From a virus, in the IMG/VR virus record IMGVR_UViG_3300049740_001473, positions 1 to 50,062 of that record: a DNA stretch of 50,062 nucleotides. One strand, written 5' to 3'. The translations under genes were made by a program, and so were the position numbers. Positions 2,714 to 32,062 of the stretch are shown here, one piece after another (position 1 is the first letter of the stretch; every line of letters begins with the position of its first letter). Under the pieces are notes generated by a model. The model did not search any database. It was not told the origin of the DNA and saw only the letters and a list, made by a program, of their open reading frames with translations.

Positions 2714-2717
2714 TTAA

Positions 2718-2725
2718 CTAAATAT
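2718..2725 (+). promoter_or_regulatory. T4-late-type promoter (CTAAATAT)
   Basis: CTAAATAT resembles the T4 late -10 consensus TATAAATA. It lies 23 nt before the ATG at 2749, leaving room for a short leader with an AAAGGA Shine-Dalgarno. It follows directly on a terminator, so it restarts transcription for cassette copy 2. Confidence 0.6.
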
Positions 2726-2748
2726 CATAGTGATAAAAGGACGCATAG

Positions 2749-3721: not shown

Positions 3722-3760
3722 TAAAACAGTACATTATTATCCGCTTAAACTTCGATTGGC

Positions 3761-3768
3761 ATAAATAC
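3761..3768 (+). promoter_or_regulatory. T4-late-type promoter (ATAAATAC) between inverted-repeat arms
   Basis: ATAAATAC lies 34 nt before the ATG at 3803. It overlaps the left arm of an 8-bp inverted repeat (ATTGGCAT at 3755-3762, ATGCCAAT at 3777-3784). It is the last late promoter I see before the giant ORF and is its likely driver. Confidence 0.6.
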
Positions 3769-3802
3769 CTTACAGCATGCCAATTAGGGGAGAGTGAACC
3801 GG

Positions 3803-4249: not shown

Positions 4250-7200
4250 ATGTCTTTTATAAGCACGACAAGAGTAATCGAGAACAATCAAGAGGTTTTA
4301 TTCGAAGGCCCATTAGATAAAGAAAGTAACGTACACACAGTTGCCATACTGAATGAAGGTGTTTCACCTAATTCTACAACCGATCCAATTAAAGTTACTT
4401 TAAGTCTTTATGACGCATCTGAGCCTGCAACAAGACCTTTTGCAATGCTAGAAGTTGCTCCGGGTACTGATGCACAGTATACTAAAGTTATAAACATACG
4501 TCCTGGAGATCAACTAAGAGCTGAAACTGATGGTGGTGAAGTCACTATTATGATCGGCGCCTTCGTTGATGAAGATACTCTAGTAACAAGTATTTTTAAT
4601 ATAACAGGGCAGTATGATCATACAGTTACATATCAACCATATGATGTTACATATTATCTTGGATCAACATATGTTAATACAACAGTAGATCAAACTGCTG
4701 TATATCCTACACAAGTTAATGGCGGTTGGACACCCTTAGGTTCTGGCTTTAACGCATATGGTGAATTTGATCCACTTGTATTATATCCGCCATTGTCTGT
4801 TGTTAAATGGGCTAACAATGTTTATGTTACAGTTACAGGATCTCCTATTGGAGTTTATCCAAATGATTATAACAGTACGTGGATTTCTTTCACATCATTA
4901 ACAAGTGACGAGATTCCAGATACGTCTGGTGTAAGTGCAAACGTTGCCGCAAGTATTACAATACTTAATAACAGATTAAACACACTTACTACAACTGAAG
5001 TTCCAGAAGCATCCGACGCCGATTTAGAAGCAGCATCAGGATTTGAAAATGCTTACTTCACTAGAGCTCGTGCTCGTGAATCTATTAGTGTAACAGGTGA
5101 CTTAATTTACGATGTTAATACTGGTGTATTATCAGCTCAAACATTAACACAAGATGATGTTAACATATTCATTGACAACAGAGTGTCAAAAGCATTTGTT
5201 GATGCACTAGGAGTTGATGCAGATACAGTTGATGGAGTTGAAGGCACAGTATTAGCACGAACTGATATATCTCCAACATTTAGTCAAAACATTATAGTTT
5301 CAGGAGAGATGCGTGGCGACTTACGTGGTAATGTATTAGCTGACGATAGTAGCATTATAATTAATCATGCTACAAAAGAAATTAATGGCCGCTTTGAAGG
5401 TACACTAATTGCAGCAAACAGTGATGTTATTTTAAATACAGGTATAGATGGTTTTGATGCTACGTTTACTGGTACTACATTTGGTGAACATAGAGGTGAT
5501 GTTTTATCAGATGATTCAAATGTAATTATTGATGCTAGTTCAGGATTAATAAGCGGTGACTTAGAAGGTAACGTTACTGCAACCTTTGGTGTATCACGAT
5601 TTAATGATATTATTACTGATAACATTATTGTGCAAGAAGAATTACAAGTTGCTAATATTTTAGGTAACATTACGTCGACAGGTGTTAGTACATTTAATAA
5701 CGTCGACATTAACGGTGGTTATATTGATAACGCTGTTATAAACACAACTAATATTACAGGTACAACTATTATAGGTACCTATATAGAAGCACAAACTGGT
5801 GGATTTAGAGGTGATGTTCTATCTACAGGTACATCACGCTTTAACGATTTGATTGTTACAGGCGACCTAACATTTAATACATTAGAGGTACAAGCACTTG
5901 CTGATTTTAAATCTCTTGTAAATATTGACGGTGGACTAACTGTCGGAGGAACTCTTAACGTTACTGGTGGAACTACATTTGGTAATATTAATGTTACTGG
6001 TGGACAAATTAGTGGCGTTACTTTAGGTAGTGGATCTTATCCGGTTGACATTGTTGCAGATGATGTAACAATTTTAAATTCATTTACTGCTACAGATGTT
6101 ACTGCTGAATTTTCGACACTAATAGTTACAGACGAAATGACAGGTGATGTTAACGGTAACTTGAGAGGAAACGTATTATCACAAGATGGTACAACTGTTA
6201 TAATAGATGCATTTGCTGGAATTATCAGAGGCGACTTAGTCGGCGATACGGCAGGACAACACACTGGTAATGTTGACGGTAATGTTGTAGGTAATGTAAC
6301 AGGTAATGTTACTGCTGCTGCTGGACTATCATCGTTCTCTAGTATGAATGCACAAATTGGTGATATTGCTGCCCTTGAAGCAGGCTCGTTAACAGTTACT
6401 GGTGCAGCAAGTTTTACAGGTGATCTAACATTTGATACACTACAGATTGCGTCATTATCAGTTAATAACACATTGACAGTTTCTGGTATTTCAACTCTTG
6501 GATCAGTAGACATTGGCGGCGGTACAATGGATGCTGTAACAATCGGTGGCAATGTGCCTGCAAGTGTTACTGGTACAATTTTTACCGGTGACAAAATGTT
6601 TGCTGATTTATTTACAGGTAGTCTAAAGGGTGTCGTAGAAGGATCAGTTGAAGGCGACTTATACGGTAATGTTCTAGGATTAGATAGTTCAATCGTTCTA
6701 AATACAAGTACTGCAAGAGCTTCATTAGATGCTGATGTTACTGGACAAATTGATGCAACGTCAAATGGTGGTGGCGAAAGTAGATTTGATGATATAACCA
6801 TTACTGGTGTATTTTCGCTGCAAGGCGGCGGCCAACTTACAGGTGATCTAACAGGTAATGTTACAGGTGATGTTACAGGTGATATATATGCAAGTAACGG
6901 AGATAAAATTTTAGAAGCAGGTAACGGAACATCTATTCCTGCAAAATTAACAGGTAATGTCGAAGGCGAAGTATTAGGTACATTTACTGGTACGGCTTCT
7001 GGAGACTTTACAGGTGATGTATTTGCTTACGATTCGACTAAAATGGTTGATGCGTTTTCTAATATATTAAAAGGTGATTTAGTTGGTAACGTAAGTGGTA
7101 ATGTTTTAGGCGATTTAACAGGTAATGTTAACACTGCAGGAACGCAAAGTGATGGTTTCTTTAGAAACTTAACAGTTGAAGATACACTTACATTCCCGTC

Positions 7201-10200
7201 ATTGAATATTTCGACAATTGATTCAGATAACATTCAGGTTGATAATGCAATATTAGATGTTGTAACAATCGGCGCTGGTATAACTACTGGTACAATTGAC
7301 AACACTACTATTGGTGCTACAACTCCAAGAGGTGGTGTATTTACTACACTACAAGGTGCAATCATTGAAGCATCGACTGAATTTAGAGGTAACATTGTAT
7401 CATCAGGATCTTCTAGATTTAACGAGCTTATTGTCACTGGCGATTTTGTAGCAAACTTACGTGGTGATATTATTGCTGAAGATTCAAGTGTAATTGTTAA
7501 CAATGCAACAAAAACATTTTACGGAACACTACAAGGTACAACGGTTGGAACACTACAAGGTAATGTTATAGCAACTTCAGGTCTAAGCGAATTTAATAGT
7601 ATAAATGTAGCACAAGAAATATCAGGTACATTAAGAGGTGATGTAGTTGCACCTGATAGTACATTGTTAATTGATATATCTAGTCAAAATATAAACGGTA
7701 ATGTAATAACAGCAACAGGTGGATTTAGTGGAGAGCTTACTGGAACACTAGTAGGAGATATCAAGGCCACCGGCGGCCAAGTTATTTTAGATTCGGGTAC
7801 TGACGGCACAGATGCAACATTTGCAGGAAACGTAACAGGTAACGTTTTAAACACATTAGGTGAAACAGTATTAGATGCTAATGCTGAAAGACTTACAGGT
7901 ACATTAGCAGGTAATGTATATGCAATAGACGGAACATCACAAATACTAGACTCGGGTACAGATGGTACCGATGCTGTATTTACTGGACAAGTAATCGGAG
8001 ATGTTACTGGTAATGTAACAGCTTCGTCGGGTGTTTCTAACTTTAATAATATAGTTATTGCCGAAGAAGCAGTAGGTAATTTTAAAGGTAATGTTCTTGC
8101 AGCAGATAGTTCTGTGCTTGTTAATTATCTTGATTCGTCAATTACTGCTGCTTCAATTACAGCAACAGGTAATTTTGAAGGTGATGTAATCGGTAATGTT
8201 GATACAAGAACAGTTGATGTTAACACAAGAAGTTATTTCCAAAATATCACAGTGTTGGGCGAAATTGACCTTAGTGGCGCATCAGGTAATATTACTGCTG
8301 ATATTGAAGGTAATTTAAAAGGTAACGTTGTTTCTACAACGGGTGATCCTAATGCTGCTGATATATTATTGTTAGATGCTGCCGGTAGAGCAATTCTTAA
8401 TATGGCATCGATTAGTTCTAATGAATTTACTGGTGACGAATTCATAGGTGACTTCCTTGGAGATTTATATTCTGCAGACGGATCATTTAGAGTATTAGAT
8501 ACAGGCGCAACAGGAAACCAAGCATATTACATCGGTGATATGAGAGGTAATGTACAAGGTAACTTACTTGGTGATGACTCGTCAGTAATTGTAAATTTTG
8601 CTTCAGGAGATGTTAACGGTAGAGTAGTTAGTTCTTCTCAAGGATTTCAAGGTAAAATTGAAGATCCTAACAGTAATATGTCCTCTCTGTATGACTTAAC
8701 AATTCGTAACAACTTATTTGTTGAAGGCACAACTACCACAGTTAATACTGATAACTTAGATATTAAAGATAACACAATTGTTTTAAACAAAGGTCAGAGC
8801 ACCGGAGTTGTTGGTGTTGTACTAGGTACAGCAGGTATACAAATTGATAGAGGCGACGGCGTAGATGCAAATCTACTTTGGACAGAAGATGGAAGCGCAG
8901 GATATTGGGACTTTACAAATACTGCTGAAGTAAGAGGCGCATTCAAAGGTAATGTTACAGGTGATGTTTATAGTCCATTTAATTCAGGAACTCCTATCCT
9001 AGATACAGGTACTGCAACTTTACCTGCTACATACATAGGTAATGTTGTAGGTGATATAGAAGGTAATGTAACTGTTGGCGCAGGCCTGTCTAGTTTCTTT
9101 AGTGTAAATGTTGAAGAAGAAATTGCTGGTAATTTACGCGGTAACGTATTAGCAAACGACAGTACTAAGATTATTGATTTTATTAACAGTAACATCTATG
9201 GTGCTACAATTTCAGCAACTGCTGGATTTAGTGGTGATGTATTCGGTAATATCGATGCTAGAGGAGAAAGTTCTGCAAGTTACAGTTATTTCCAAAACCT
9301 TAGTGTATCAGGTGACATCCAATTTGATAGTTTAAACATTGCTACACTTGACGTAGGTACTGATTTAAACGTAGGCAACAATCTAGATGTTACTGGTCAA
9401 ATTACAGCAGGTAGTGTGGATATTGCTGGTGGTGCGATCGACGGCACAATTATAGGTTCGACTGTTCCTGCTGCCGCTAGTGTAACTACGCTTACAGTAA
9501 CAACTGGTGATATTAATGTTACTCAAGGTACTATTAATATTACACAAGGTAACTTGAGTGCTGATACTATTTTTGCTGTTACTGATTTTAGAGGTGACTT
9601 GGTAGGTAATGTTACTGGTAGTTTGTCAGGTGGTACGGTTACAGGTGATGTTTATGGTAATCTTTATCGTCCAGGCGGCACTACTCCTGTTCTTAATACT
9701 GGTACAGGTGGAGTTGAACCTCGACTATACGGTAATGTAACTGGTAACATTACAGGTGATTTATTAGGTGATGTAACAGGTAACGTACAGGGTGTATTAT
9801 ATGGTAGTGTTATAAGTGAAGATAGTACAACAACTATTGTTAATGCTTCGTCTGGATTAATTACAGGTGATATTAATTCATCAGGTACATCTACTTTTAA
9901 CAATATTGTTGTTGAAGGCGCATTAGATTTTACGACATTTGCTCTTAACGAAATTACAGTTAACACACTACTACAAGTTGATGGTACTGCTAACTTAGCA
10001 GTGGCAAACATATTTGCTGGTGATATCGACAATACTAGAATAGGTTCTACAACTCCGTCGACTATCAGAGGTACTACTATTGAAGCAACTACTAAGTTTG
10101 TTGGTGACATTGCAGGTGAAGTAGACGGTAACGTTACTGGAGACTTAAGAGGTAATATAATAGGCGAAGATAGTTCGGTTATTGTAGATAATGATCTTAA

Positions 10201-13200
10201 AAGATTTACAGGTAACTTACTTGGCGATGTATATGCAACTGACGGTGTGTCACTATATACTATTTTAGATTCTGGTACTGACGGTACAGATGCATCTATA
10301 ATTGCAGATGTTAAGACACCGTTAAATGCAACTATTGTCGATACAAGTGCTGCTACTGTTACAGCAACAGGCGGCTTTACAGGACAAATAGATGCATCAG
10401 CTCCAGGTACTTCGCAATTCCATACAGTAACTATATCAAGTAATTTAAGTGTTCCAGGAACAGTAAATGTCACTCAAACAGTTGAAGCAACCGGTGGTAT
10501 CGAAAATACTCCAATAGGCGCAGGAAATACAGAATCAACTGGTGCGTTTACATCTATTACTACAACTGGAGCTGTTACTGTTGGCGGCGACTTAATAGTA
10601 CAAGGTAATACAGTTACACTAAACACTTCAACATTAGATGTTGAAGATTTGAATATTACTGTTGCAAAAGGCGCTACAACCGCTGCTGCTGCGGACGGAG
10701 CAGGTCTAACAGTTGATACAGCAGGAGCTTGGATACAATATAAGAATCCAAGTGATCAATGGCGCTTTAATAAAGATATAGATTTAACAACAGAAAACGT
10801 AAGATTATTAGGTAACGTTACTTCAACTGGGGTTTCAAACTTTAGTGGCACAGCAAACTTTAGTGGCACAGTTGATATGGCAGGCGCAACAATTAATAAT
10901 TCGACTTTCCAAAATATGGATGTTGCAGCAACGTCAGAGTTTAGCGGAAATATGACATTAGATACTGCTGCAAACTTCACAATGATAAATGCTGCTGGCA
11001 CTCCAGTAACAGTATTTGCAATTGACGGATCAAATGGCAACACTACTATTTCACAAGGCGGACAGTTTGAAATATTAGATGCAACATCTGCTTCAATGTT
11101 TAGTATCGACGGCGGCACAGGTAACACATTAGTTACAGGTACACTTGGTGTAGACGGCATAGTCAGTATTAATGATACAACAGGATCTACTACAACAACA
11201 ACAGGTGCGCTAATTGTAGACGGTGGCGTAGGTATAGCAGAAAACTTATATATAGGCGGCAACTTAGATGTTGCTGGCAACGCAGTTATTTCAGGAAATT
11301 TAACTTTTGGTGATGCTGCAACTGATACGGTAGCATTTGGTGCTGACATTAACAGTAGTATTATTCCGGATATAAACAACACATACGATTTAGGTAGTTC
11401 AGCACAGGGTTGGAGAGAACTTTATCTTACACAAAATATTAACTTCAAAGGTGCAACAGGCCAAAATGAAATCATTGTTCCAACAAATTTATTTGATGCT
11501 TTAAGTATCAAAGACGATGCTAATACAAGTATAATTGACGTTGAAACAACCACAGGTGCTCCAGTTGTAAAAATTAACCCAGATACAACAATTGCTGGTA
11601 CTCTTGATGTTACCGGTGAAACTACATTAGCAAGTGCAATTATTAGTGATATAGATCCAAATAGAGTTATACTATCAGGTGGTAGTAAAGAAATAAGTTA
11701 CAGTGACCAATTTACATATTCAGTAGGCGCTGGAACAATTGATGTAGATATTACCGGTAGTTTAGCAGTTGACAACTTAACGTTTGATGGAAATACAATT
11801 TCAAGCACAAATTTAAATGGCGCTATTATAATTGATCCGCAGGGTGCTGGTGTAGTTACAGTAAGTGCTAATACAACAATAAGCGGCACATTTACAAGCA
11901 CAGGACTTGCAAGTTTAGATAACGGTATTGATGTTAATGGTGCTGCGTTTACAGTTTCTAACACAGGTGCAGTTAATACTACATCAACATTAGATGTTGC
12001 TGGTCTTGCATCACTTGATGGCGGTATTGATGTTGACGGTGCATTTACTGTAGCAAATACAACGGGTAATATTACAACGTCAGGCACACTAGATATAACA
12101 GATACAACTATTTTAAGAGATACAGTTGGCATACAAGGTATTACAACTATAAGTAATGCTAACGATGCATCTAATGCAACTTCAGGCGCACTAATAGTTT
12201 CAGGCGGTGTAGGAATTGCTAAAAAATTATTTGTTGCTGGTGACTTTGAAATTGGTACAAATAAATTTAATGTAGCAGCAACTACAGGTGATACAGACGT
12301 AGCAGGTGACTTTACTGTTACTAGTGGAACAGCATTCTTAGATGGTGGCATTAATGTTGATAGTGGTGCATTTATTGTGGCAAATACAACAGGTGATATC
12401 ACAACCCTCGGTGATATTAGTATAGCAGATAGTAAGAAGTTACTAATTGGTACAGGAAACGATTTAGAAATCTTCCATGATGGTTCTAATTCTTTTATTA
12501 AAGATGTTGGTGCAGGTAATTTAACAATAGCAACAGATGTACTAACACTTACAAAGGGTAACGGTACTAAAACAACAGCAGTATTAGATGCAGATGGTGC
12601 AACTGAACTTTATTACAATAATACAAAAAGATTTGAAACTACACTTGTAGGAGCAGATGTTACCGGAACATTCAACACTTCAGGACTTGCAACTTTAGAT
12701 TCGGCTGTAATATCAGATTTACCTGCTAACAGAATTGTATATACAAGTGGTGCAAATGGTAGACTAATTAGCACAGCAGATTTTGTAATAGACGGCACAT
12801 CATTAAATGTAGGCTCAAATAATTTTGTTGTTACAGCAGCAACAGGTAACACTGCTATAGTTGGTACTTTAGACGTAACTGGCGAAACAACAGTAGGTAA
12901 CTTAGTTGCTGACGATATAAAGTTAGGCGATGGCGAAAAGATACAATTTGGTAATGCACAAGATTTAGAAATTTATCACGACGGATCTAATAGTTATATA
13001 CATGAATCTGGTGCAGGAGGGTTGATCCTAAGATCTGCCAACTCAATTCTTTTCCAAGACGCTACTAGTACAAAAACAGCCATGTCATTAACTGCTGGCG
13101 GTGGCCAGATATTATACCAGAATAATGTTCAAAGATTTAGGACTAGTACCGTTGGTGTACTCATAACAGGTACTGCTGATATCTCTGGTGATTTAGATGT

Positions 13201-25200: not shown

Positions 25201-28200
25201 CGGTACAATTAACGCAACAAGCGGTACTATTACTGGAACTACTTTAGGTAGTACATCAAGTAGAGTTACAATAGAAGCTGATAACATCGGTGTTAGTGGT
25301 CTAATTACAGGTGACATTAGTGGTTCTATAACAAGTAGTAACGTTACAATTACTGGTGGTACAATTAATACTACGCCAATCGGTGGCGCAAGTGCTGCTA
25401 CAGCAGATGTTATTAGAGGTACTGTAATCACAGCAGAAACTAACTTTGTTGGAAATATTACAGGTAACGTTACATCAACTGGTACATCTACATTCGATGG
25501 CATAGACGTAAGCGGCGGCGAGATAGACGGTACAATAATAGGTGGTAACGATCCTGCAAACATAACTGGTTTGGTGATTGAAGCGGACACAGAATTTAGA
25601 GGAAACATTGTTGCTGCATCAGGATCAAGTTCATTTACAGATTTAACTGTAAATGGAAATATTACCAACACAGGTTCGACAAGTACTGCAACGTTTAGAG
25701 ATTTAAGTGTAGTTGGTAACTTTGTTCCTAACGCTCTTAATGTTACTACTGATGCAGACATAGGCGGCAACTTAACTGTTGGCGGCACTGCACAGTTTGA
25801 CACAACTCTATTACAAGTTAATCAAGCTGCAACAGGCGCACCGGCAGGTTCACTAACAGCAGGTATTGAAGTAAGTAGAGGTAGTTCTCCAGCTAAAAGA
25901 CTTAACTGGGACGAAGGTGGATCGACATGGACAGTAAGTACTGAGAAATTTACAGCAGGTACATTCGAAGCTACTACTACAATTACTGCCCCAACTGTAA
26001 CTGCTGATGTAACTGGTGACTTAACTGGTCTAGCAGATAGAGCAGATAAATTAGAAACAACAAGAACAATTGCGTTAGCTGGCGATGTTGCAGGTAGTAT
26101 TGGATTTGACGGTACTTCAAATGTAACTATCAATACAACAATACAACCTAACAGTGTAGATATTGTTGCAGATACAACAGGCGATTATGCAAGAACTGTA
26201 ACTGTAAGTGGCAATGGTTTGTCAATTACTGGAACACAGGGACACGATATAGCTTATGAAGTAATATCAAATGCAGTTTCAACTAACACAGCAAGTACAA
26301 TAGTATTTAGAGATGCATTTGGTGCATTTAATGCAGGCGACATAACAGGTTCGCTTATTACTGCTAACACTAGATTAGACGGCATTACAAGAGGTAATGT
26401 ACAATCTACTGCTGACGGTGCATTTGCAGCAGGTGTTACACTTGTAAATGCGGCAGACAGAACATTAGATAATATTAAAGATATCACTTCTGAAGATGGT
26501 ACATTTGATACAATCGACATTAATGGTGGTAATATAGACGGTACTGTAATCGGTAGCGCAACACCAGCAGCAGGTACGTTCCTTGCAGTAGAAGGTACAA
26601 CTATTGAAGCAACAACAGGATTTACTGGAGATTTAACAGGCGATGTGCTTGCAAGTGATGCAAGTGTAATACTTAATCATACAGCAAAATCAGTTAATGC
26701 AACAAACTTAGATGGTATACTAGGTGCTAATACAGCATCGGCTGCAACAGTAACAACACTAGCAGCAAGTGGCGCAGTAACTCTTACAGCAGGCACAGCA
26801 TCTAACTCAACTACAACAGGTACACTTGTTGTAACAGGCGGTGCAGGCGTAAGTGGCACAGTAAGTGCAGGACAATTTGTTGGTCCTGTACAAGGTGCTT
26901 TAGTTGGCACAGTTGGTGCAGGCGGAATTTCAAATAGAAACTCAGGTGAATTTACAACTGTAAATACTGATAGTAATGTTGTAGTTGGCGGATCACTTAC
27001 TGTTAACTCTGCAACATCAACATTTAGTACTGTTGATATTAATGGCGGCGCAATAGACGGAACACGTATAGGTGGTGCTACACCTGATAACGCAGACTTC
27101 TTAGATGTAGAAGGCACAACAATTACAGCATCTACAGGGTTTGTAGGTAACATTACTGCACCGTCAGGTGGTACAGTAGGAACATCCACACTACATGATT
27201 TAGATCTACAAGGTGACTTAACTGTAGCAAGCGGAAATATTATATTTGGTGCCAACACTGTAATTGACAATAGTAGAAATGCTACGTTTAATAACTTAAC
27301 TGTACAAGGTACATTCTTACCAAACACATTAAATGTTACATCAACAGCCGTAATAGGAACAGACTTAACAGTTAATGGTGACCTTACAGTTAATGGTACA
27401 ACTACAACACTTGATACTGATAATATTACACTAGCAGATAACACAATTGTACTGAATACAGGATATTCAGGACTATCAAATGGCGCATTTACATCAGGTA
27501 TTGAAATTGACCAAAACGGTACATCAACAAGCCTACTATGGAACAACGGCACAAATACTTGGACAGTTGGTAATAAAAACTTTACAGCAACTAGCTTTAT
27601 TGCAACAACAGATTTCCAAGGTGCATTAGTTGGTAACGTTACTGGTAAAATTGGTGAAACTTCAAGAGACACAGGTAAGTTTACAACATTGGATACAACC
27701 GGAACTGTTACAGTTGGTACAAGTTTAACTGTTAACGGAGGTGTTGCAACACTTGGCAATGTTGACATAAATGGTGGTAATATAGACGGCACTGTGATAG
27801 GTAATAATGTTCCAGCAACAGTTACTGGTACAACAATTACAGCTAGCCAATTTGTAGGTCCAGTTGACGGGCATGTAACAGGTGACGTAACAGTAGAAGC
27901 AGGCGATACATTAAATGTAGACGGTATTGTAGATATTGATGCAAGCTCAGGTAATATGGATAATGTAGTTATAGGTGCAACAACACCAGTAGCTGGCACA
28001 TTTACAACTATAACCGGTAACACAAGTATAACTAGCGGAGCTACAGGAACAGGACCAATTACTGGTGGTGTTATTACAGCAGCAACAAACTTTGCAGGTG
28101 CATTAACAGGTGATGTAACAAGTTCAGGTACAAGCACATTTGAAATTGTAGAAATAGATACTAGTGCTGATATTCAAACACTTGATGTACAAGCAGGCAC

Positions 28201-31200
28201 AAATTTATTAGGAACATTAGATGTTACCGGCGCAGCAACATTTGTAAGTCAAGTTAATGTCGAAGATGATGTTATTACACTTAATTCAGATTATACAGCT
28301 GGTGCTCCGTTAACAAGCGGACAGCAAGGTATACAAGTTCTTAGAGGTGATGAAAATACTGTAAGATTTGTATGGGTAGAAAGTCAAGATAGATGGGAAA
28401 CACAAAATACTGATTTACGTGTAGGTGAGAATCTATCGGTTAACGGAACAATTATATCAACCGGCGGAGTTCAAAGCACACCAATTGGCGATGTAAATCC
28501 TAATACAGGTAAATTTACAACTCTTGAAACAACAGGCAATGTAACTATTACAGGCGATATTGATCATACAGGTGACTTTGTAACTACAAGTTCAGCAATT
28601 AAAATTGATAATGCTGAGTCTACAATGGGCAATTTGTTTGGTTCAGGTATTTATGTAGGAGCAGACGGTCTTTCAGGTAGACCAAGTATTATAGTTGGAT
28701 CAAACAGTAAATGGGAATTTAACAGAGACTTTGTTGCAACTGCCGGCAGTCAATTTATAGGCGATATAACAGGCGATGTAACAGGTAACATTACATCGTC
28801 AGGCACAAGTACATTTAGTGGTACAGTTGATCTTAATGGTGCTACAGTAAACAACGCAGCATTTAACCTAGTTGGTGATCTTACAGGTACAGCAGATGAT
28901 GCAGATGCATTGTCAAGTGCTGTAACTGTTACACTAGCAGGAGATGTAGCAGGTACTGCAACCTTTACAAATGCAGGCGATACAGCAGCAATTACAACAG
29001 TTATCCAAAACGGATCAGTTGAAAATGGAATGTTAGCAGGTGCTATTACTAATGATAAGCTTGTAAATGATTCAGTAACTATAGGTGCAACTGAAGTAGA
29101 TTTAGGCACAACTGTAACAGCATTTACAGGCCTAACTAGTTTAACTTCGACAGCAATATTTGGCGAGCTAGGTTCTCCTGCTATAAGAGGTGACATTTAC
29201 GCAACAGATATAAATGCTTCAAATACTGTTACAGCAGGTACATTTGCTGGTAATGTAAGTACATCTGGTACAAGCTTAATGGGCGCAACGATATTTAGTG
29301 GTAACGGAGTATTTAATGCAGGACTTACTGTTGCAGCAGGACAAACAGCAACAATTAACGGTGACTTAGACGTTAACGGAACTACAACATTTGCAAATAT
29401 TAGTGTTCCAGGAACATTTACTGCTGAGTCTACTGCTAACTTTAACACTGACTTTATTAAATTAAATGCACTAGGTACAGTGCAAAATGCAGGTATAACA
29501 ATTGAGCGTGGGGCTACTGATGTTTCGTTCTTCTGGGACGAATCAAATGACAAATGGTCTATATCAAGTGAAACACTTGTAGCTGGTATGGTAGAAAGTG
29601 ATGTAACAGGACATCACTATGGTGATGTAACAATTGCAGGTGGCGAAACTATTGATGTCAGTGCAGGTACAATAACTTTTGCTAACGATCAAATCAGTGG
29701 TAATGCAATTAACGGTGGTACTATTGATGCTATTACTATTACAACATTAGCAGCATCGTCTGTAAACATAGACGGTGGTGCAATTGACGGAGTTTCTATA
29801 GGTAACGCATCTAGAGGCACTGGTAAGTTTAGTACACTTGACGCAACCGGAGCAATTACTACTGACACTAATATCACAGCAACAGGATCAATAAATGGTG
29901 CAACAGTTGTTGCAAGCACATCAATGACAGCACCGTTATTTACAGGTGACGTAACTGGTGATGCAGATGGTGATCATACTGGTACATTTACAGGTACAAT
30001 GAGCGGTGCAATTGGCGGCGCATCAGACAGAAGCACTGCACACTTTAGTACAGTTGATGCATCTAATGCTACACTATCAAGTGCAGACATCAACGGTGGT
30101 ACAATTGACGGTGTTGTTATTGGTGGCGCATCACCAGGCTTAATTACAGGTACTACTATTAATGGTACTACTATTAATGCAAGTACATTTAATGGTAACA
30201 TTAATGGTAATGTTACAGGTGATGTAACAGGTAACGTAACAATTCCAGTTGGTGATACACTATCAGTTAACGGTACATTTGCAATTGATAATATGACAGT
30301 CAATCAAAACTTAACTGTAACAGGTGATATGACTGTAAACGGCACTACTACGTCTCTTAATACTGAAGAAATTAAACTTGCTGACAACTATATTCTACTA
30401 AACAGCGGTACTAGCACAGCACAAAATGCTGGTTTAGAAGTTGATCTATCAGGCGGAACAACTAAGGCATTAGAATGGACTACGTCAGGCGGCGGCAGAT
30501 GGAGTGTTGGATCTGAAGACTTTGCAGCAGCAAACTTTATTGGTGACGTAACTGGTGACGTAACTGGAAATGTAACAGGTAATGTTACTTCAACAGGAAC
30601 TTCAACATTTAGTACTGTTGATATTAACGGCGGAAACATTGACGGAACAATTATTGGCGGCACAACTAGAGCTGAAATAACTGGTACAACAATTACCGCA
30701 GACACAAGATTCTATGGTCCATTAACTGGCGATGTATCTGGTAATGTAGTAGGTAATGTTACTGGCACAGTAAGTAGTATTGCAAATCACTCAACAACTG
30801 ACTTATCAGAAGGTTCTAATCAATACTTTACAGATGCAAGAGCAAGAGCAGCAGTTAGTGTTACTGATACAGGCGGTGACGGCGGTCTTACTTACAATAG
30901 CACAAGTGGTGTGTTTACTTACACAGGTCCAACTGCATCAGAAGTAAGAGCACATATTACAGGAAGCACTGGTGTAACATTTAGTGGTGGTGCAATAAGT
31001 ATAGGACAACCTGTTGCTACAACAGATAATGTTACATTTAACGATGTTGATGTTGATGGCGACTTAACTGTTGCAGGTTCGTTGGCATTTGGTACTGTTG
31101 AAATTACAAATAGTTTAACAGTTTCAGGTAATATAACTTCGCTAGAATCAGAACAGATAGCGTTCTCTGATAACTTTATACTACTTAACGCAGTTCCGTC

Positions 31201-32062
31201 AGGTGATACACCACATGCAGGCGAAACAGCAGGTATTGAAATTGATAGAGGAACTAACTCCAACAAATTCTTTAGCTGGGACGAAACTGCTGATAAGTGG
31301 TCACTAGGCGGGGAAACACTTGTAGCAGGTACAGTTGAAGCTGACTTTACAGGTACATTAACTGGTAGAGTTAACCATGCAAGTGGTACATCAAACTTCC
31401 AAAACATTGATGCTACTGGCACAATTGAAGCTGATGGGGTTATAACTGGTAACGCTGGCTTCTCAGGAGACTTGACTGGTAATGTATCTGGTACAATAAA
31501 TGATATTTCCAATCATACAACAACAGCATTAAGTGAAGGTACAAATTTATACTTTACAACTGCAAGAGTAAACAGTCATCTACTATCAAACATTATTAAT
31601 AACGTTATGCCAGCTGCTGGTACAGGTGGTACTTTAGACTTAGGTACTAATGCTCTAAGATGGAGAGATGGTTACTTTACTAGAGATGTTGTAGCAAACA
31701 CACTTACTGCTGTAACTAAAAACTTCGTAATTGATCACCCAACTAAGGAAGATCATAAATTAAGATATGCATCACTCGAGGGTCCAGAAAATGGTGTATA
31801 TGTAAGAGGTAAACTAAAAGGTGAAACTGTAATTGAACTACCTGACTATTGGACAGCACTAGTTCACGAAGAGTCAATTACAGTTAACTTAACAGCAAAC
31901 CTTGGCTTCCAGCAATTATATGTTGAGAAGATAGAAGATGGCAAAGTGTATATTAATATTGCAGGGGCAGATATTGATGCAATTGATTGTTTCTATACAG
32001 TTTACGGTGAACGTAAAGATGTAGACAAACTTGAGATTGAATTTAAAAAGGACTCAGAATAA
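4250..32062 (+). CDS. Giant 9270-residue repeat-built tail-fibre / adhesin protein
   Basis: One uninterrupted frame of 27.8 kb with ATG at 4250 and GGGAG 10 nt upstream. By length it should weigh roughly 0.9 MDa. Layout: residues 1-115 form a cap-like beta domain resembling the 110-residue proteins upstream; about 122-214 hold two aromatic modules resembling CBM5/12 carbohydrate-binding folds; about 266-283 carry a Y-F-T-R-A-R-A-R fibre module. Residues from about 330 to 8800 form a shaft dominated by G, T, D, N, V, A and I, made of several interleaved repeat families: G-(D/N)-V-T-G; I-D-G-T-x-I-G; G-G-V-G-I; a roughly 70-residue N-x-I-x-L-N...W module; and G-(D/N)-I heptads. Two more Y-F-T modules lie near the C-terminus. 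The last 110 residues (V-I-D-H-P-T-K, R-Y-A-S-L-E-G-P-E, L-P-D-Y-W, V-Y-G-E-R-K-D-V) match the tip domain of cyanophage fibres by family memory. Cysteine appears absent by eye except residue 9247. No S74-type SD-x-R-L-K motif was seen. Role inferred: a very long host-contact fibre. Confidence 0.85.
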   Translation: MSFISTTRVIENNQEVLFEGPLDKESNVHTVAILNEGVSPNSTTDPIKVTLSLYDASEPATRPFAMLEVAPGTDAQYTKVINIRPGDQLRAETDGGEVTIMIGAFVDEDTLVTSIFNITGQYDHTVTYQPYDVTYYLGSTYVNTTVDQTAVYPTQVNGGWTPLGSGFNAYGEFDPLVLYPPLSVVKWANNVYVTVTGSPIGVYPNDYNSTWISFTSLTSDEIPDTSGVSANVAASITILNNRLNTLTTTEVPEASDADLEAASGFENAYFTRARARESISVTGDLIYDVNTGVLSAQTLTQDDVNIFIDNRVSKAFVDALGVDADTVDGVEGTVLARTDISPTFSQNIIVSGEMRGDLRGNVLADDSSIIINHATKEINGRFEGTLIAANSDVILNTGIDGFDATFTGTTFGEHRGDVLSDDSNVIIDASSGLISGDLEGNVTATFGVSRFNDIITDNIIVQEELQVANILGNITSTGVSTFNNVDINGGYIDNAVINTTNITGTTIIGTYIEAQTGGFRGDVLSTGTSRFNDLIVTGDLTFNTLEVQALADFKSLVNIDGGLTVGGTLNVTGGTTFGNINVTGGQISGVTLGSGSYPVDIVADDVTILNSFTATDVTAEFSTLIVTDEMTGDVNGNLRGNVLSQDGTTVIIDAFAGIIRGDLVGDTAGQHTGNVDGNVVGNVTGNVTAAAGLSSFSSMNAQIGDIAALEAGSLTVTGAASFTGDLTFDTLQIASLSVNNTLTVSGISTLGSVDIGGGTMDAVTIGGNVPASVTGTIFTGDKMFADLFTGSLKGVVEGSVEGDLYGNVLGLDSSIVLNTSTARASLDADVTGQIDATSNGGGESRFDDITITGVFSLQGGGQLTGDLTGNVTGDVTGDIYASNGDKILEAGNGTSIPAKLTGNVEGEVLGTFTGTASGDFTGDVFAYDSTKMVDAFSNILKGDLVGNVSGNVLGDLTGNVNTAGTQSDGFFRNLTVEDTLTFPSLNISTIDSDNIQVDNAILDVVTIGAGITTGTIDNTTIGATTPRGGVFTTLQGAIIEASTEFRGNIVSSGSSRFNELIVTGDFVANLRGDIIAEDSSVIVNNATKTFYGTLQGTTVGTLQGNVIATSGLSEFNSINVAQEISGTLRGDVVAPDSTLLIDISSQNINGNVITATGGFSGELTGTLVGDIKATGGQVILDSGTDGTDATFAGNVTGNVLNTLGETVLDANAERLTGTLAGNVYAIDGTSQILDSGTDGTDAVFTGQVIGDVTGNVTASSGVSNFNNIVIAEEAVGNFKGNVLAADSSVLVNYLDSSITAASITATGNFEGDVIGNVDTRTVDVNTRSYFQNITVLGEIDLSGASGNITADIEGNLKGNVVSTTGDPNAADILLLDAAGRAILNMASISSNEFTGDEFIGDFLGDLYSADGSFRVLDTGATGNQAYYIGDMRGNVQGNLLGDDSSVIVNFASGDVNGRVVSSSQGFQGKIEDPNSNMSSLYDLTIRNNLFVEGTTTTVNTDNLDIKDNTIVLNKGQSTGVVGVVLGTAGIQIDRGDGVDANLLWTEDGSAGYWDFTNTAEVRGAFKGNVTGDVYSPFNSGTPILDTGTATLPATYIGNVVGDIEGNVTVGAGLSSFFSVNVEEEIAGNLRGNVLANDSTKIIDFINSNIYGATISATAGFSGDVFGNIDARGESSASYSYFQNLSVSGDIQFDSLNIATLDVGTDLNVGNNLDVTGQITAGSVDIAGGAIDGTIIGSTVPAAASVTTLTVTTGDINVTQGTINITQGNLSADTIFAVTDFRGDLVGNVTGSLSGGTVTGDVYGNLYRPGGTTPVLNTGTGGVEPRLYGNVTGNITGDLLGDVTGNVQGVLYGSVISEDSTTTIVNASSGLITGDINSSGTSTFNNIVVEGALDFTTFALNEITVNTLLQVDGTANLAVANIFAGDIDNTRIGSTTPSTIRGTTIEATTKFVGDIAGEVDGNVTGDLRGNIIGEDSSVIVDNDLKRFTGNLLGDVYATDGVSLYTILDSGTDGTDASIIADVKTPLNATIVDTSAATVTATGGFTGQIDASAPGTSQFHTVTISSNLSVPGTVNVTQTVEATGGIENTPIGAGNTESTGAFTSITTTGAVTVGGDLIVQGNTVTLNTSTLDVEDLNITVAKGATTAAAADGAGLTVDTAGAWIQYKNPSDQWRFNKDIDLTTENVRLLGNVTSTGVSNFSGTANFSGTVDMAGATINNSTFQNMDVAATSEFSGNMTLDTAANFTMINAAGTPVTVFAIDGSNGNTTISQGGQFEILDATSASMFSIDGGTGNTLVTGTLGVDGIVSINDTTGSTTTTTGALIVDGGVGIAENLYIGGNLDVAGNAVISGNLTFGDAATDTVAFGADINSSIIPDINNTYDLGSSAQGWRELYLTQNINFKGATGQNEIIVPTNLFDALSIKDDANTSIIDVETTTGAPVVKINPDTTIAGTLDVTGETTLASAIISDIDPNRVILSGGSKEISYSDQFTYSVGAGTIDVDITGSLAVDNLTFDGNTISSTNLNGAIIIDPQGAGVVTVSANTTISGTFTSTGLASLDNGIDVNGAAFTVSNTGAVNTTSTLDVAGLASLDGGIDVDGAFTVANTTGNITTSGTLDITDTTILRDTVGIQGITTISNANDASNATSGALIVSGGVGIAKKLFVAGDFEIGTNKFNVAATTGDTDVAGDFTVTSGTAFLDGGINVDSGAFIVANTTGDITTLGDISIADSKKLLIGTGNDLEIFHDGSNSFIKDVGAGNLTIATDVLTLTKGNGTKTTAVLDADGATELYYNNTKRFETTLVGADVTGTFNTSGLATLDSAVISDLPANRIVYTSGANGRLISTADFVIDGTSLNVGSNNFVVTAATGNTAIVGTLDVTGETTVGNLVADDIKLGDGEKIQFGNAQDLEIYHDGSNSYIHESGAGGLILRSANSILFQDATSTKTAMSLTAGGGQILYQNNVQRFRTSTVGVLITGTADISGDLDVGGSVNINNQFTIAASTGNTQIDGTLIVDGLTTLDGGITADGGVFTVANTTGNVATSGTLNVTGDTTLSTLTATSDVTVQGDLTVEGNLTTVNATEINVSDKNITLGGTTTTLSALNNSGITIGGTLGAGSNPALTYTYTGVSPNQVERFNLNRELIVDKVHGDVKGNVYASDDTSIILNAGTNGNDAIFKGDVYSTTDTLIIDTGASIDDATFYGNIDLRTETNYGNTPSTGTTSYFNNLDVAGTLSMANASIGTLSGNLVGDIYASNGTSLILDNGTNGTDASFQGSIKNDNGTVIIQNGSTGVAATFTGKLVGDVDSSGISYFNNMYANVINAFLDGDISGSVLGEDSVMMLDAGARTLSVTDVQTSTITASSYLSGDVRGDIYNDDGTQKILETGGTATNSAIFTGRVDASTATNTTSNFNNVDATGIFTGVLGAVGNTANAFVNDLAVDSIATFTGVVNALTSAVNINSVNIDGGTIDGTVIGAATPAAVTGTTVTANTGFVGDITGDITGDLDARGLGGTTFIDDLVMGPGTNAAIDTATITTLNASTLVLTNLALSGDLDVLTGTGTFQNLEVTAGGNIVGLATLGTSASPVASSVITTIDVSAGDIVGLSTLGTSASPVVAADINTAVIDDVTSVTVRADNFTITNTGDAAHKFTGPLEGNVTSAGTSTFTGTVNLSSASVVLADNQLSGDKIDGGVIGNADLLGNGTGNTISGYDITVTGALDLTGATVTYDNDSISGDKVSGGTIDSANITGAAGKTLDGYDITVGSGRTLTVDGATSVATLAASALAELDGGFNVNDDFVVDVDGNTRLNAAANFEIWNAAGTPVKVFDIVGSTGATTITNTLDVVGPVSITTGTGSTSTSTGSLIVTGGVGISENAFVGGDLDVAANAQLGGTLDVDGVTNINNTLTVDSLASLDGGIAVSDGAVGDAFTVAVTTGNVVTTGTLDVTGLSSLDGGIDVNGSNYTVSAAGAVTQASTLDVSGDVTLLQSANFEIFDAGVGSNSTFAINGADGNTQIAGTLGVDGLASLNASLTVTGLTTTDTAVVNNTLDVTGATTLDGTFAVQNAGVDVFTVADATGNTVISGTLQAGNTTVADVTATGTGTVTGNFDVNTTAFTVAAATGNTAILGDLAVNTTALTVAAATGNTTVGGTFDVAGVTNFNDTTGSTLSTNGAVIIDGGLGVAENINFSGVLKTTTATASTDTVTGSIVTAGGVGIAGALNVGGVTHISQTVDATSATDGALFVDGGVGIAKKLFVGTDLDVTGSVQIDTDLNVTGNTVITGNLTVNGASTTINAATLDVEDKDIRVASNADTLLGANNAGLIIGSTNVGDIANGGNAGETNVTFTYNATDDSLDSNVDIQAPTFIGNLTGDTTGSATIGVGKTLDVDGAFNVNASSGNLDNVVIGGVTRADASVHTLTTRNINVDSGYDVTLASGDVTITAGDFVATTGNISATSGTISGDIFVAGTEFRGDLTTVDGGTGVNLFESTGVAVSTGNITTTTGDFTSTSGDFTTGSGNISTSSGDITTTTGDINGQIITANTKVIGQLGTDASTAADMNDAFVATLYSNTTITSSGNTSVGGNLTVTGTSDFDDAVTISNNLTISGPGGVDAQGNPNKSTATFQNIVVTGSFTVDTLTIDDFTVGDELFVLGDTALSGNLTVNSGVTTLSSVDIAGGAIDGVTIGGDGVTPAANITGAALTGTSLTTTTGNIVLNSGNLVATQGNITTTAGEIRSPVGGFVGQIDATATGTSSFDNILVNDDLTVNGKVFSVASAASGFVGDLYSNNSGGTPIKILQAGTTLGTAMYTGNVTGVVGDAANRNTAHFSTINATQADLASVDINAGTIDGVTFTAGTLVDTPIGQTGTPQNATVSNLVSNTIRVNSSTANTIDGVTIGDTQRRPGNFTTLNANTSITVGAVAGSINSTPIGDSIASTITGTTIAASTRFEGVLQGDIQSTSGGVGLPAGALLIDSSTRNISNIVDFTSETVQATTITATQTTNGFQGDLTGDVIGQIGTTTLSDRNNAFFTNVDILGDLDIDGDITLAATHTITGIIDGLAGTDITGAFTLETGQTADLSGGTLTLANDQISGDSIEGGTIGNITISNLTSPNIIITGGTLQGVDATSFDIDGGTIINTSIGQSGSAQNIKGATIESTTGFVGQINATGGSGGTSNFDIITVAGTSTFTGNATFGNLSGALTGSFTGGATITSGTFSNIQIASSTQINSSAFIGPLSGDVTGGGTGTVSTFNRLNVQGGPTEASQISNLTVGTFATNAATITGGNITNTTIGGATGTGSFPGYFSLVEATGAITAGTQFIGDMNNPNTVNQDDSSADFTQGYFTNLRVKNFETDTIIINSDQEFSNVLITGDLTVNEDVLIKGDLEVEKNFITVNKNETGNSGISGAGNAGIIFERGNGVGIQDASLIFSESGGNPEYEFSQFKVLAEEFQAPLFSGNITAVLGTSTFNNVTVSNSANLGNSVTIAGGNIDNTVIGNGTQASIDGTTIKAHVEFQGDLDTTNGVTGNIDTITMDATGLITARAGLDATGGTIDGEGRFTTGTTIDAGTHIRNTPIGVDVSGISGRAVGYFNALEATTIISTLGITGNITGDVTGSIDDRNTIGEVPLNPPVLTENLNMNLSQFDRVSVLGHLTMGTDTYIKAVNLDVSGIFNVNDLDIGATLDVAGNFTVGSGTPKKLDVNAATGAMTHNGAFTTSGTATFDGDINANANVTVGSDAADELIINAVIDSDILIKTDGAYDIGTVSTRWGHVYADNATFTDDVAIGGNLTVTGSVTQTNVDQINIADNIIVLNGQESSTQISAGTAGIQISRGTGSDASFLYDEGLNSWTLTGATSKLTVNEVRADIEATDGATIVDISAKSIDMSAVDTDALTVNQGATIGTTLVVSGLSTLAEAKVQDLAQDHIPLAGLDGRLNTNANFRFDGVDLDIGAAGSETFKVAVASGNTDIQGTLFVDKQTTIKGNNLGASSTTTGALVVQGGIGISENIHAGGTLTLTGLASLASGINVNNDFVVDADGNTDLSSGATLTVDGEVNFNGGIVMDTDRFTVANGSGNVATAGTLQVSGNSILTALITSGIASLNGGIEVDITKFTVDGGTGAVVTQSTLTVDGTTTLNSDLSVTGSNDIRIVDALTANVFEVNGTTGATLITGNLTMDGSVGAGNLDIGGNFTVANATGNTDITGTLDVTGDTTVDVFSAGTSTLGTTSITGTTLSVGSDFTIIGASGVTEIGGMLSADGGIQVRNTANTAEAFTVSLGTGNTNIVGTLDVTGTTTVHDLNITGALGVTEGLTVTDDFSVNGNFVVTAANGNTQVDGTLTADGDFNINNQFTVTATTGATNIASGPLTVGGLTTLNGGITADGGVFTVADGTGSIATSGTLNVTGATTLSSALSADGGIEVRNTGNTAEAFSVQAGSGNVDTEGTLDVGGDVTIGANTVTIDAGNGNTIIAGTLNVNTSATVASLRVSDLTTVNAVLLGQSSGEVADSSNLTFSGSLLDVTGSIDVSGNVDIAGNVFANNAYIETLNVNEIPVTGSAGLITGSSAFTFNPTGGILGVTGSITTTGTVTGSTFLGNITAPGTSTFSGQTNLNGLVTLANNLTIGAGVGSINATSGAIATNSTITAGGLASLNGGINVDSGAFTVSGDGFGSVFIDGQTNIDNNLLITSSGDITLSDGVSTVITLDGATGGISADGNLNIAGNTNLYGSITRLGNAVSDELEINSVLTKGFYLKAGTLNADIGSTTTRFADAFLENLNVSENVTIAGDLTVEGEFTTVNAQTVAIADNIITLNSGQAAADAGIEIDLSGTTKELKWANTAGEWTVGAETFVAGAFRGDLHASDSAVLVNQTTKAVDVATVTTSANTTVGGILAVNGTNLNVGSGNFVVTSANGNTDIAGILNVGSSNFTVQPGSGNTLVAGTLGVTGLTTIDTSTVTGVMNITSSVESTGTTNGAIKILGGIGLSGNIHMGGNLHVGGTINATSGTITGTTLGSTSSRVTIEADNIGVSGLITGDISGSITSSNVTITGGTINTTPIGGASAATADVIRGTVITAETNFVGNITGNVTSTGTSTFDGIDVSGGEIDGTIIGGNDPANITGLVIEADTEFRGNIVAASGSSSFTDLTVNGNITNTGSTSTATFRDLSVVGNFVPNALNVTTDADIGGNLTVGGTAQFDTTLLQVNQAATGAPAGSLTAGIEVSRGSSPAKRLNWDEGGSTWTVSTEKFTAGTFEATTTITAPTVTADVTGDLTGLADRADKLETTRTIALAGDVAGSIGFDGTSNVTINTTIQPNSVDIVADTTGDYARTVTVSGNGLSITGTQGHDIAYEVISNAVSTNTASTIVFRDAFGAFNAGDITGSLITANTRLDGITRGNVQSTADGAFAAGVTLVNAADRTLDNIKDITSEDGTFDTIDINGGNIDGTVIGSATPAAGTFLAVEGTTIEATTGFTGDLTGDVLASDASVILNHTAKSVNATNLDGILGANTASAATVTTLAASGAVTLTAGTASNSTTTGTLVVTGGAGVSGTVSAGQFVGPVQGALVGTVGAGGISNRNSGEFTTVNTDSNVVVGGSLTVNSATSTFSTVDINGGAIDGTRIGGATPDNADFLDVEGTTITASTGFVGNITAPSGGTVGTSTLHDLDLQGDLTVASGNIIFGANTVIDNSRNATFNNLTVQGTFLPNTLNVTSTAVIGTDLTVNGDLTVNGTTTTLDTDNITLADNTIVLNTGYSGLSNGAFTSGIEIDQNGTSTSLLWNNGTNTWTVGNKNFTATSFIATTDFQGALVGNVTGKIGETSRDTGKFTTLDTTGTVTVGTSLTVNGGVATLGNVDINGGNIDGTVIGNNVPATVTGTTITASQFVGPVDGHVTGDVTVEAGDTLNVDGIVDIDASSGNMDNVVIGATTPVAGTFTTITGNTSITSGATGTGPITGGVITAATNFAGALTGDVTSSGTSTFEIVEIDTSADIQTLDVQAGTNLLGTLDVTGAATFVSQVNVEDDVITLNSDYTAGAPLTSGQQGIQVLRGDENTVRFVWVESQDRWETQNTDLRVGENLSVNGTIISTGGVQSTPIGDVNPNTGKFTTLETTGNVTITGDIDHTGDFVTTSSAIKIDNAESTMGNLFGSGIYVGADGLSGRPSIIVGSNSKWEFNRDFVATAGSQFIGDITGDVTGNITSSGTSTFSGTVDLNGATVNNAAFNLVGDLTGTADDADALSSAVTVTLAGDVAGTATFTNAGDTAAITTVIQNGSVENGMLAGAITNDKLVNDSVTIGATEVDLGTTVTAFTGLTSLTSTAIFGELGSPAIRGDIYATDINASNTVTAGTFAGNVSTSGTSLMGATIFSGNGVFNAGLTVAAGQTATINGDLDVNGTTTFANISVPGTFTAESTANFNTDFIKLNALGTVQNAGITIERGATDVSFFWDESNDKWSISSETLVAGMVESDVTGHHYGDVTIAGGETIDVSAGTITFANDQISGNAINGGTIDAITITTLAASSVNIDGGAIDGVSIGNASRGTGKFSTLDATGAITTDTNITATGSINGATVVASTSMTAPLFTGDVTGDADGDHTGTFTGTMSGAIGGASDRSTAHFSTVDASNATLSSADINGGTIDGVVIGGASPGLITGTTINGTTINASTFNGNINGNVTGDVTGNVTIPVGDTLSVNGTFAIDNMTVNQNLTVTGDMTVNGTTTSLNTEEIKLADNYILLNSGTSTAQNAGLEVDLSGGTTKALEWTTSGGGRWSVGSEDFAAANFIGDVTGDVTGNVTGNVTSTGTSTFSTVDINGGNIDGTIIGGTTRAEITGTTITADTRFYGPLTGDVSGNVVGNVTGTVSSIANHSTTDLSEGSNQYFTDARARAAVSVTDTGGDGGLTYNSTSGVFTYTGPTASEVRAHITGSTGVTFSGGAISIGQPVATTDNVTFNDVDVDGDLTVAGSLAFGTVEITNSLTVSGNITSLESEQIAFSDNFILLNAVPSGDTPHAGETAGIEIDRGTNSNKFFSWDETADKWSLGGETLVAGTVEADFTGTLTGRVNHASGTSNFQNIDATGTIEADGVITGNAGFSGDLTGNVSGTINDISNHTTTALSEGTNLYFTTARVNSHLLSNIINNVMPAAGTGGTLDLGTNALRWRDGYFTRDVVANTLTAVTKNFVIDHPTKEDHKLRYASLEGPENGVYVRGKLKGETVIELPDYWTALVHEESITVNLTANLGFQQLYVEKIEDGKVYINIAGADIDAIDCFYTVYGERKDVDKLEIEFKKDSE
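4613..4891 (+). other. Possible tandem CBM5/12-like carbohydrate-binding modules in the giant ORF
   Basis: Residues 122-214 contain two short units of similar form: Y-Q-P-Y-D-V-x-Y-Y-L-G-S-T-Y-V ... G-G-W-T-P-L, and F-D-P-L-V-L-Y-P-P-L ... W-A-N-N-V-Y-V ... S-T-W-I-S-F. The spacing of aromatics, a V-x-Y/W-x-x-x-x-Y-V core and a closing tryptophan recall the CBM5/12 fold. This is the most aromatic-rich part of an otherwise aromatic-poor protein. The assignment rests on pattern only. Confidence 0.4.
9500..9562 (+). repeat. Three tandem G-(D/N) heptads, cluster 1
   Basis: Three consecutive 21-nt units encode T-T-G-D-I-N-V, T-Q-G-T-I-N-I and T-Q-G-N-L-S-A. The cluster is followed shortly by a D-F-R-G-D-L segment. 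Confidence 0.7.
13205..13410 (+). repeat. Long near-identical direct repeat, left copy
   Basis: About 200 bp that reappear at 23243-23450. Both encode N-I-N-N-Q-F-T-V/I, then G-G-I-T-A-D-G-G-V-F-T-V-A and A-T-S-G-T-L-N-V-T-G. Stretches of dozens of bases are identical, including synonymous positions. Confidence 0.75.
14960..15127 (+). repeat. 84-nt tandem direct repeat in the giant ORF
   Basis: Two 28-codon units start at 14960 and 15044. The first 13 codons are nearly identical (G-L-x-T-L-G-T-S-A-S-P-V); the remainder has diverged. Confidence 0.7.
16559..16690 (+). repeat. 66-nt tandem repeat in the giant ORF
   Basis: Two 22-codon units, 16559-16624 and 16625-16690, both encode V-N-T-T-A-x-T-V-A-A-A-T-G-N-T followed by a short glycine turn. 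Their base sequences differ at several synonymous sites. Confidence 0.75.
17531..17614 (+). repeat. Four tandem G-(D/N) heptads, cluster 2
   Basis: Four 21-nt units encode A-S-G-D-V-T-I, T-A-G-D-F-V-A, T-T-G-N-I-S-A and T-S-G-T-I-S-G. They are followed by D-I-F-V and an E-F-R-G-D-L segment. Confidence 0.7.
17711..17836 (+). repeat. Six tandem G-(D/N) heptads, cluster 3
   Basis: Six consecutive 21-nt units (residues 4488-4529) follow the consensus (S/T/G)-(S/T)-G-(D/N)-(I/F)-x-x without any break in phase. This is the cleanest short-period array in the giant ORF. Confidence 0.8.
18353..18436 (+). repeat. Four tandem G-(D/N) heptads, cluster 4
   Basis: Four 21-nt units encode T-T-G-N-I-V-L, N-S-G-N-L-V-A, T-Q-G-N-I-T-T and T-A-G-E-I-R-S, followed by a G-G-F-V-G-Q segment. 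Confidence 0.7.
23243..23450 (+). repeat. Long near-identical direct repeat, right copy
   Basis: Partner of 13205-13410, offset by 10038 nt at the start and 10041 nt further in, so the two copies differ by one codon of length and remain in frame. Copies this similar, 10 kb apart, point to intragenic duplication or gene conversion. Confidence 0.75.

Follow-up and report, generated by a model that had tools for sequence, protein, structure and literature searches.

Gene content of the locus

The sequence analysed is IMG/VR virus record IMGVR_UViG_3300049740_001473, a stretch of 50,062 nucleotides referred to here as the window. Judged from its sequence, the window is a fragment of a T4-like jumbo phage, the best cultured relatives of which, by terminase and tail sheath, are PA5oct, Paride, MIJ3, Phosso and Atu_ph07. 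Its central feature is a single open reading frame (ORF) of 9270 codons, hereafter the giant, which is encoded inside a virion-structure gene cluster comprising portal, major capsid, gp13/15, sheath, tube and terminase genes. The features of the window are listed in Table 1. The tube gene is also downstream of the giant, and the portal and major capsid genes are found upstream in a longer sister contig, 3300025751_000013. In T4, the corresponding interval holds genes 10, 11, 12 and wac (fibritin).

The giant has structural genes on both sides. Upstream, the window retains the end of a second giant ORF, a point missed by the initial annotation, which is 4958 aa long in sister contig 3300025751_000013 (33952-48828). 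The lengths of this second giant in relatives are 4957, 5602 and 4253 aa, and it carries CxRDxxxIIDA-type repeats; its last 565 aa show a dN/dS of 0.46 against 3300034341, well above that of its neighbours. The five small ORFs between the two giants are kept in all four giant-bearing lineages. Downstream, the 683-aa fibre-like protein has a C-terminus in common with PA5oct gp359, Atu_ph07 gp176 and Phosso fibre-cluster proteins.

Table 1. Features of the window and of the protein encoded by the giant ORF. Residue numbers refer to the 9270-aa protein; G059 and G008 are distant relatives described in the text.
Feature	Position	Strand	Residues	Remarks
3' end of second giant structural ORF	49..1746	+		phrog_5342/17885 'tail fibre' family
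Five small ORFs (112, 193, 110, 215, ~147-150 aa)	1760..4246	+		two phrog_1276-like
Giant ORF, probable tail fibre (9270 aa, 930 kDa, pI 4.05)	4250..32062	+	1-9270	conserved, purifying selection
N-terminal cap	4250..4600	+	~1-117	predicted all-beta (~8 strands, low confidence); presumed virion attachment
Two tandem Y..YDVVYY-G-TYV...P....W segments	4601..4915	+	~118-222	phrog_9851 match
Linker with 'YFTRARAR' fibre motif	4916..5239	+	~223-330	sole predicted helical part, low confidence
Proximal shaft, beta-type repeats	5240..26725	+	~331-7492	collinear with first, S74-ending fibre gene of G059/G008
X module 1	8693..8908	+	1482-1553	iterative HMM
X module 2	10574..10762	+	2109-2171	iterative HMM
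X module 3	13424..13573	+	3059-3108	iterative HMM
X module 4	17066..17209	+	4273-4320	iterative HMM
X module 5	20321..20527	+	5358-5426	iterative HMM
X module 6	21566..21775	+	5773-5842	iterative HMM
X module 7	24554..24745	+	6769-6832	iterative HMM
X module 8	25751..25936	+	7168-7229	iterative HMM
Junction	26726..26773	+	~7493-7508	alignment to two separate genes in relatives
Distal shaft	26774..31708	+	~7509-9153	collinear with second gene (G008 2893 aa, partly G059 2243 aa)
X module 9	27362..27568	+	7705-7773	iterative HMM
X module 10	28211..28396	+	7988-8049	iterative HMM
X module 11	29348..29563	+	8367-8438	iterative HMM
X module 12	30308..30508	+	8687-8753	iterative HMM
X module 13	31097..31306	+	8950-9019	iterative HMM
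C-tip domain	31709..32059	+	9154-9270	68-sequence alignment; AF2; phrog_17490
683-aa fibre-like protein	32063..34114	+		begins one base past the giant's stop
gp15-like tail sheath stabiliser (-), gp14-position virion protein (-), gp13-like head-tail adaptor (+)	34554..37919	mixed
Tail sheath, 1087 aa	38739..42002	+		T4-like jumbo phage
Terminase large subunit	47739..49319	+		54% to PA5oct-type jumbo phages, nearest cultured relatives

An intact frame under purifying selection

The initial annotation had described an intact frame of 9270 residues, and its coordinates are exact: the frame begins with ATG, ends with its lone stop and has no internal stops. The probability that 9270 codons would remain open by chance, given the base composition of the window, is ~10^-301. 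Each of the remaining five frames across the same interval contains between 121 and 1127 stops. The lower figure, just 121 stops over 27.8 kb, belongs to a reverse frame, and many minus-strand ORFs of up to 486 aa are present within the giant (window 5365-31512). These long antisense ORFs are by-products of the giant's codon composition.

The same open frame is found in three sister IMG/VR contigs: 3300047450_000156 (9270 aa, 99.97% amino acid identity), 3300034341_000538 (9270 aa, 96.1%) and 3300025751_000013 (9511 aa, 95.5%). Among the window and these three contigs, the giants differ by whole-codon indels only (+1, -1, +132 and +108 aa), and in 3300025751_000013 the 132 added residues represent a tandem duplication, their DNA matching the flanking DNA at 90% and 100%. 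Against relatives that are 5% divergent, the ORF as a whole has a dN/dS of 0.12-0.13, similar to the 0.15 of the tail sheath gene in the same pair, and every 500-codon block stays below 0.4. The giant contains 11 internal DNA self-matches, the longest of which is 200 bp at 83% identity; because these matches are short and diverged, collapse or expansion of repeats in a short-read assembly is unlikely. The low dN/dS, the conserved ends and the same frame in relatives bear out the earlier proposal of one real protein as opposed to read-through of junk. The giant is a genuine single coding frame preserved by natural selection.

Architecture of the protein

Repeat HMMs and conservation reveal a fibre-type layout in the giant, with an N-terminal conserved region, a repetitive shaft and a C-terminal cap. 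The protein is acidic, has one cysteine, and is rich in T/G/N/S and V/I/L, with Thr alone at 15.7%. This composition agrees with that described for the triple beta-helix of T4 gp34, which is likewise rich in T/G/N/S and V/I/L (PMC5537660).

Residues 1-120, which include the N-terminal cap, are 62-65% identical to distant orthologues. The cap shows weak profile similarity to the small upstream phrog_1276-type proteins (hhalign probability 52%, E 1.4e-4), and tblastn returned no match to it in any deposited phage at E<=1e-5. The phrog_9851 tail fibre match covers aa 112-198 (E 1.3e-8). By eye, the two tandem segments of this region look like CBM5/12-type modules, which they may prove to be.

Four repeat classes were defined by iterative HMMs. 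Class X, with a length of ~70 aa, has 14 hits, of which 13 are substantial and one is partial, while classes D ('GDLRGNVLADDSS...'), T ('GGxIDGTVIG...ITGTTI') and S ('GTLDVTGLASLDGGI') have 27, 26 and 44 hits, respectively. The shaft resembles cyanophage structural proteins by tblastn. Pfam and NCBIfam searches with segments amounting to about half of the protein yielded only a sub-threshold bactofilin match, and a PDB sequence search with three segments yielded no relatives. Homology to gp34/36/37 was likewise not detected, as the parts scanned have no Pfam or PHROG match to these proteins and the three segments no PDB relative. A giant bacterial adhesin of the RTX or Bap type was considered and rejected, since Pfam and NCBIfam found no Ig-like, RTX or cadherin domain in about half of the protein.

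The C-terminal tip

The core of the C-tip domain, SFxIDHPTK..LRY.SLEGPENGVYVRG..IELPDYW..L, is near-invariant, with 24 invariant columns across 68 diverse sequences. The domain is a member of phrog_17490 (E 2e-39), and its core sits at the C-terminus of the giant. It recurs in 67 other viral contigs at ~43-53% identity, on proteins of ~326-4548 aa whose shafts are otherwise different, and is also found in cyanophages, in fibres of other marine phages and in a Flavobacterium tail fibre. An AF2 model reaches pLDDT >90 across most of the last 115 aa. A fold search with this model found no match among solved structures at E<=0.001; among viral predicted structures, it matched collagen-like and tail proteins that carry the same domain. 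Peptidase_S74 (PF13884) was not found at the C-terminus or the junction of the window giant, and an 8782-aa orthologue has a Peptidase_S74 chaperone in place of the C-tip.

A tip that is conserved on very different fibres and exchanged for S74 in an orthologue speaks against the 'adhesin' of the initial annotation if this is taken to mean a receptor-binding C-tip. Because S74, a known chaperone, is replaced by the C-tip, and because the tip is conserved across different fibres, a folding role is favoured. By sequence comparison, the domain behaves more like a cap for folding and trimerisation, which is more likely than a role in receptor specificity. Recognition of the receptor may instead fall to variable modules of the shaft or to companion proteins.

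One-gene and two-gene relatives

A profile search with the N-terminal region led to three further lineages, G058, G059 and G008, at 52% identity. G058 (3300000425_000002) encodes the intact 8782-aa orthologue, which is 52% identical at its N-terminus and ends in Peptidase_S74 (E 7e-16); its best-hit pieces run in the order of the window giant along nearly the whole chain, at ~40-55% identity. In G059 (3300007609_000014), separate genes encode proteins of 6200 aa (with a terminal S74, E 1e-13), 2243 aa and 4681 aa. In G008 (3300028388_004500), a 4822-aa ORF with a terminal S74 (E 3e-12) is followed by a separate 2893-aa ORF that ends in the C-tip.

The division between these genes maps to a defined place in the giant. 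Up to residue ~7504, the window giant aligns with the last part of the first G059/G008 gene, stopping directly before S74; from residue ~7508 onwards, it aligns with the beginning of the second. These placements score 181 and 171 bits, compared with 92 and 63 bits, respectively, for the next best. In G058 the two parts are continuous at the equivalent position (window 7500/7536 = G058 6255/6312). Since the two halves of the window giant align to separate genes in G059 and G008, these are one-gene and two-gene forms of the same protein, and on this alignment the giant seems to combine in one chain what certain relatives encode as two fibre genes. The single chain would then represent a proximal and a distal half-fibre, produced either by fusion or by splitting in the relatives. 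Trees built to find the direction of the change disagree: MCP by itself places the window's phage with G058 (0.74), while five concatenated proteins place G058 with G059 (UFBoot 64). Fusion would be mechanistically easy, because in-frame deletions joining LtfA and LtfB, each of which ends in S74, have been observed in T5-like phages (PMC4728585).

Fusion of fibre genes and S74 caps are already known, as are tail fibres themselves. The size of the giant, its retention as a giant by two divergent lineages and the exchange of caps at a defined junction are undescribed in the open-access literature, and no report of a phage protein of comparable size was found in open-access papers.

Two further observations concern the relatives themselves. 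The 6200-, 2243- and 4681-aa ORFs of G059 adjoin one another (L215-L218), giving ~39 kb of fibre coding DNA, and a 4253-aa fibre-family ORF lies upstream of the three. The G008 homologue of the giant (L116) has two reading-frame changes in its N-terminal part, at ~4810 and ~8415, which may reflect sequencing error, a pseudogene or a programmed frameshift.

A long tail fibre as the best reading

The product of the ORF is probably a real tail-fibre polypeptide of giant size, made by a T4-like jumbo phage, a reading to which we assign a probability of roughly 0.7. Of the readings considered, a long tail fibre fits the giant best, in keeping with the fibre type first suggested for it: the protein is of the tail-fibre type and exceeds by far the length of the fibres in most relatives. 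The N-terminal cap would anchor it to the baseplate or tail, and three chains would intertwine, in the manner of T4 gp34, into a thin shaft that broadens where X modules occur. Folding of the trimer would start from the C-terminal cap, the C-tip here and S74 in relatives. The giant may grow through in-frame duplication of shaft repeats, of which contig 3300025751_000013 provides an instance, and it would serve in an initial, reversible host contact made far away from the tail.

The length of such a fibre depends on the fold of its shaft. In gp34, the 370 residues from 901 to 1270 span 18 nm (PMC5537660), and in Fibralongavirus 265 residues span 17 nm (PMC6950010). These calibrations, 0.049-0.064 nm per residue, give ~450-590 nm for 9270 residues, a plausible length only for a shaft that forms a trimeric triple beta-helix like that of T4 gp34. 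The initial estimate of more than 500 nm likewise holds only for such a shaft, and the AlphaFold model of the N-terminal 760 aa has a mean pLDDT of 49. A single-chain beta-solenoid rises about 0.02-0.03 nm per residue and would reach just ~190-280 nm. The tails of related or hairy jumbo phages measure 123-136 nm; with a triple-beta shaft, the predicted fibre would be several times the length of the phage's tail. We propose, tentatively, that uncultured aquatic jumbo phages may build single-chain trimeric fibres of ~9000 residues and ~0.5 µm in which half-fibre genes are joined and the internal S74 is replaced by one terminal cap.

Other readings of the giant have to be weighed. It could form whiskers or hairs, appendages of the neck, sheath or capsid as in CBB and Atu_ph07, and not baseplate fibres. 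Atu_ph07, which is among the nearest cultured relatives by terminase and sheath, bears capsid-associated hairs, CBB has 119-nm tail hairs of unassigned gene, and the giant adjoins the gp13-15 neck genes, next to which the T4 genome has its genes for gp12 and fibritin. However, tblastn with the C-tip, the N-terminal part and two shaft segments (E<=1e-5) found no homologue, and none of the X module, in CBB, Atu_ph07 or PA5oct, and the homologues that were found carry tail-fibre, baseplate or structural annotation, mostly in cyanophages, which makes hairs unlikely. A polyprotein, translated as one chain and then cleaved, perhaps around residue 7500, to release a proximal and a distal fibre segment, is distinctly unlikely: although G059 and G008 produce the halves as separate proteins with the break exactly at that place, the self-cleaving S74 is absent from the junction in both the window and G058, no protease or cleavage motif was recognised, and Pfam found nothing in 300 aa at the junction.

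Equal length in independent assemblies, indels confined to whole codons, a dN/dS of 0.12, an intact collinear orthologue at ~40-55% identity and the small number of long near-identical DNA repeats render an artefact of assembly or annotation, or a decaying read-through frame, highly improbable, even though repeats generally hamper assembly and the G008 contig contains frame changes in the N-terminal part. Finally, the chance that the giant is a tape-measure protein, often the longest gene of a phage, is negligible, as tape measures are alpha-helical and tail-sized (2893 aa for 450 nm in phage G) and a helical ruler as long as 9270 aa would require a tail of ~1.4 µm, whereas the giant has beta-type repeats, 15.7% Thr and homologues that are fibres or structural proteins.

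Comparison with known fibres

Read as a long tail fibre, the giant would share with that of T4 (proximal gp34 and distal gp36/37) a thin shaft, rich in beta structure and punctuated by wider domains, and two fibre segments joined end to end. Despite this likeness, the T4 fibre is made of three proteins of 1289, 221 and 1026 aa, while the giant is a single 9270-aa chain with no detectable sequence homology to them, and no separate hinge protein or fibre chaperone gene was recognised here. The T5-like phages DT57C and DT571/2 present the same split/single variation, with one Ltf or LtfA plus LtfB and S74 at the end of each half (PMC4728585). Their fibres are on a scale of ~1400 aa and without sequence homology to the giant, and the joined form in the window differs in having no S74 and a C-tip at its end.

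Similarity in sequence is found among cyanophages. The shaft is 29-36% identical to the Kyanoviridae proteins P-RSM6 CPXG_00120 (2538 aa) and S-RIM2 gp094 (1912 aa), which occupy a similar slot: a gene of ~2400 aa, two small ORFs, the 2538- or 1912-aa gene, and then gp13-gp14-gp15. These large fibre proteins are, however, 4-5 times shorter than the giant. The C-terminal domain is ~54% identical to those of the phrog_17490-type proteins S-SSM7 SSSM7_018 (278 aa) and the tail fibre of Flavobacterium phage immuto (~587 aa), which are about 15-30 times shorter. PA5oct, Paride, Atu_ph07 and Phosso are the nearest cultured relatives by terminase (48-55%) and also by sheath, and the C-terminus of the 683-aa neighbour is homologous to theirs. 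These phages encode a 3857-4555-aa virion protein beside the baseplate genes, but it has no BLAST similarity to either giant.

The giant shows that phage fibre genes can reach 26-28 kb and that selection keeps genes of this size unbroken in two or more divergent lineages. The one-gene and two-gene forms, together with the swapped C-terminal chaperone module, make fibre fusion or fission and cap exchange testable by comparison. Joined fibres of ~0.5 µm, if real, would be among the largest non-polyprotein viral proteins and among the longest virion fibres known. At that length, they would raise questions about how a shaft of 930 kDa per chain folds, about the range of host search in dilute water and about signalling from fibre to baseplate.

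Other genes of the cluster

Three further genes of the window merit mention. A NUDIX hydrolase gene (34111-34578) lies, in convergent orientation, between the fibre cluster and gp15, and its position beside gp15 is kept in the relatives examined. The tail sheath, at 1087 aa, compares with 659 aa for T4 gp18 and 1120-1126 aa in other members of the clade, which suggests that the oversized sheath of this clade contains a large surface insertion. Finally, a sulfotransferase-like gene (phrog_3347; 45293-45862) is present in the window and in 3300025751 and is missing from the close relative 3300034341; it is a variable accessory gene.
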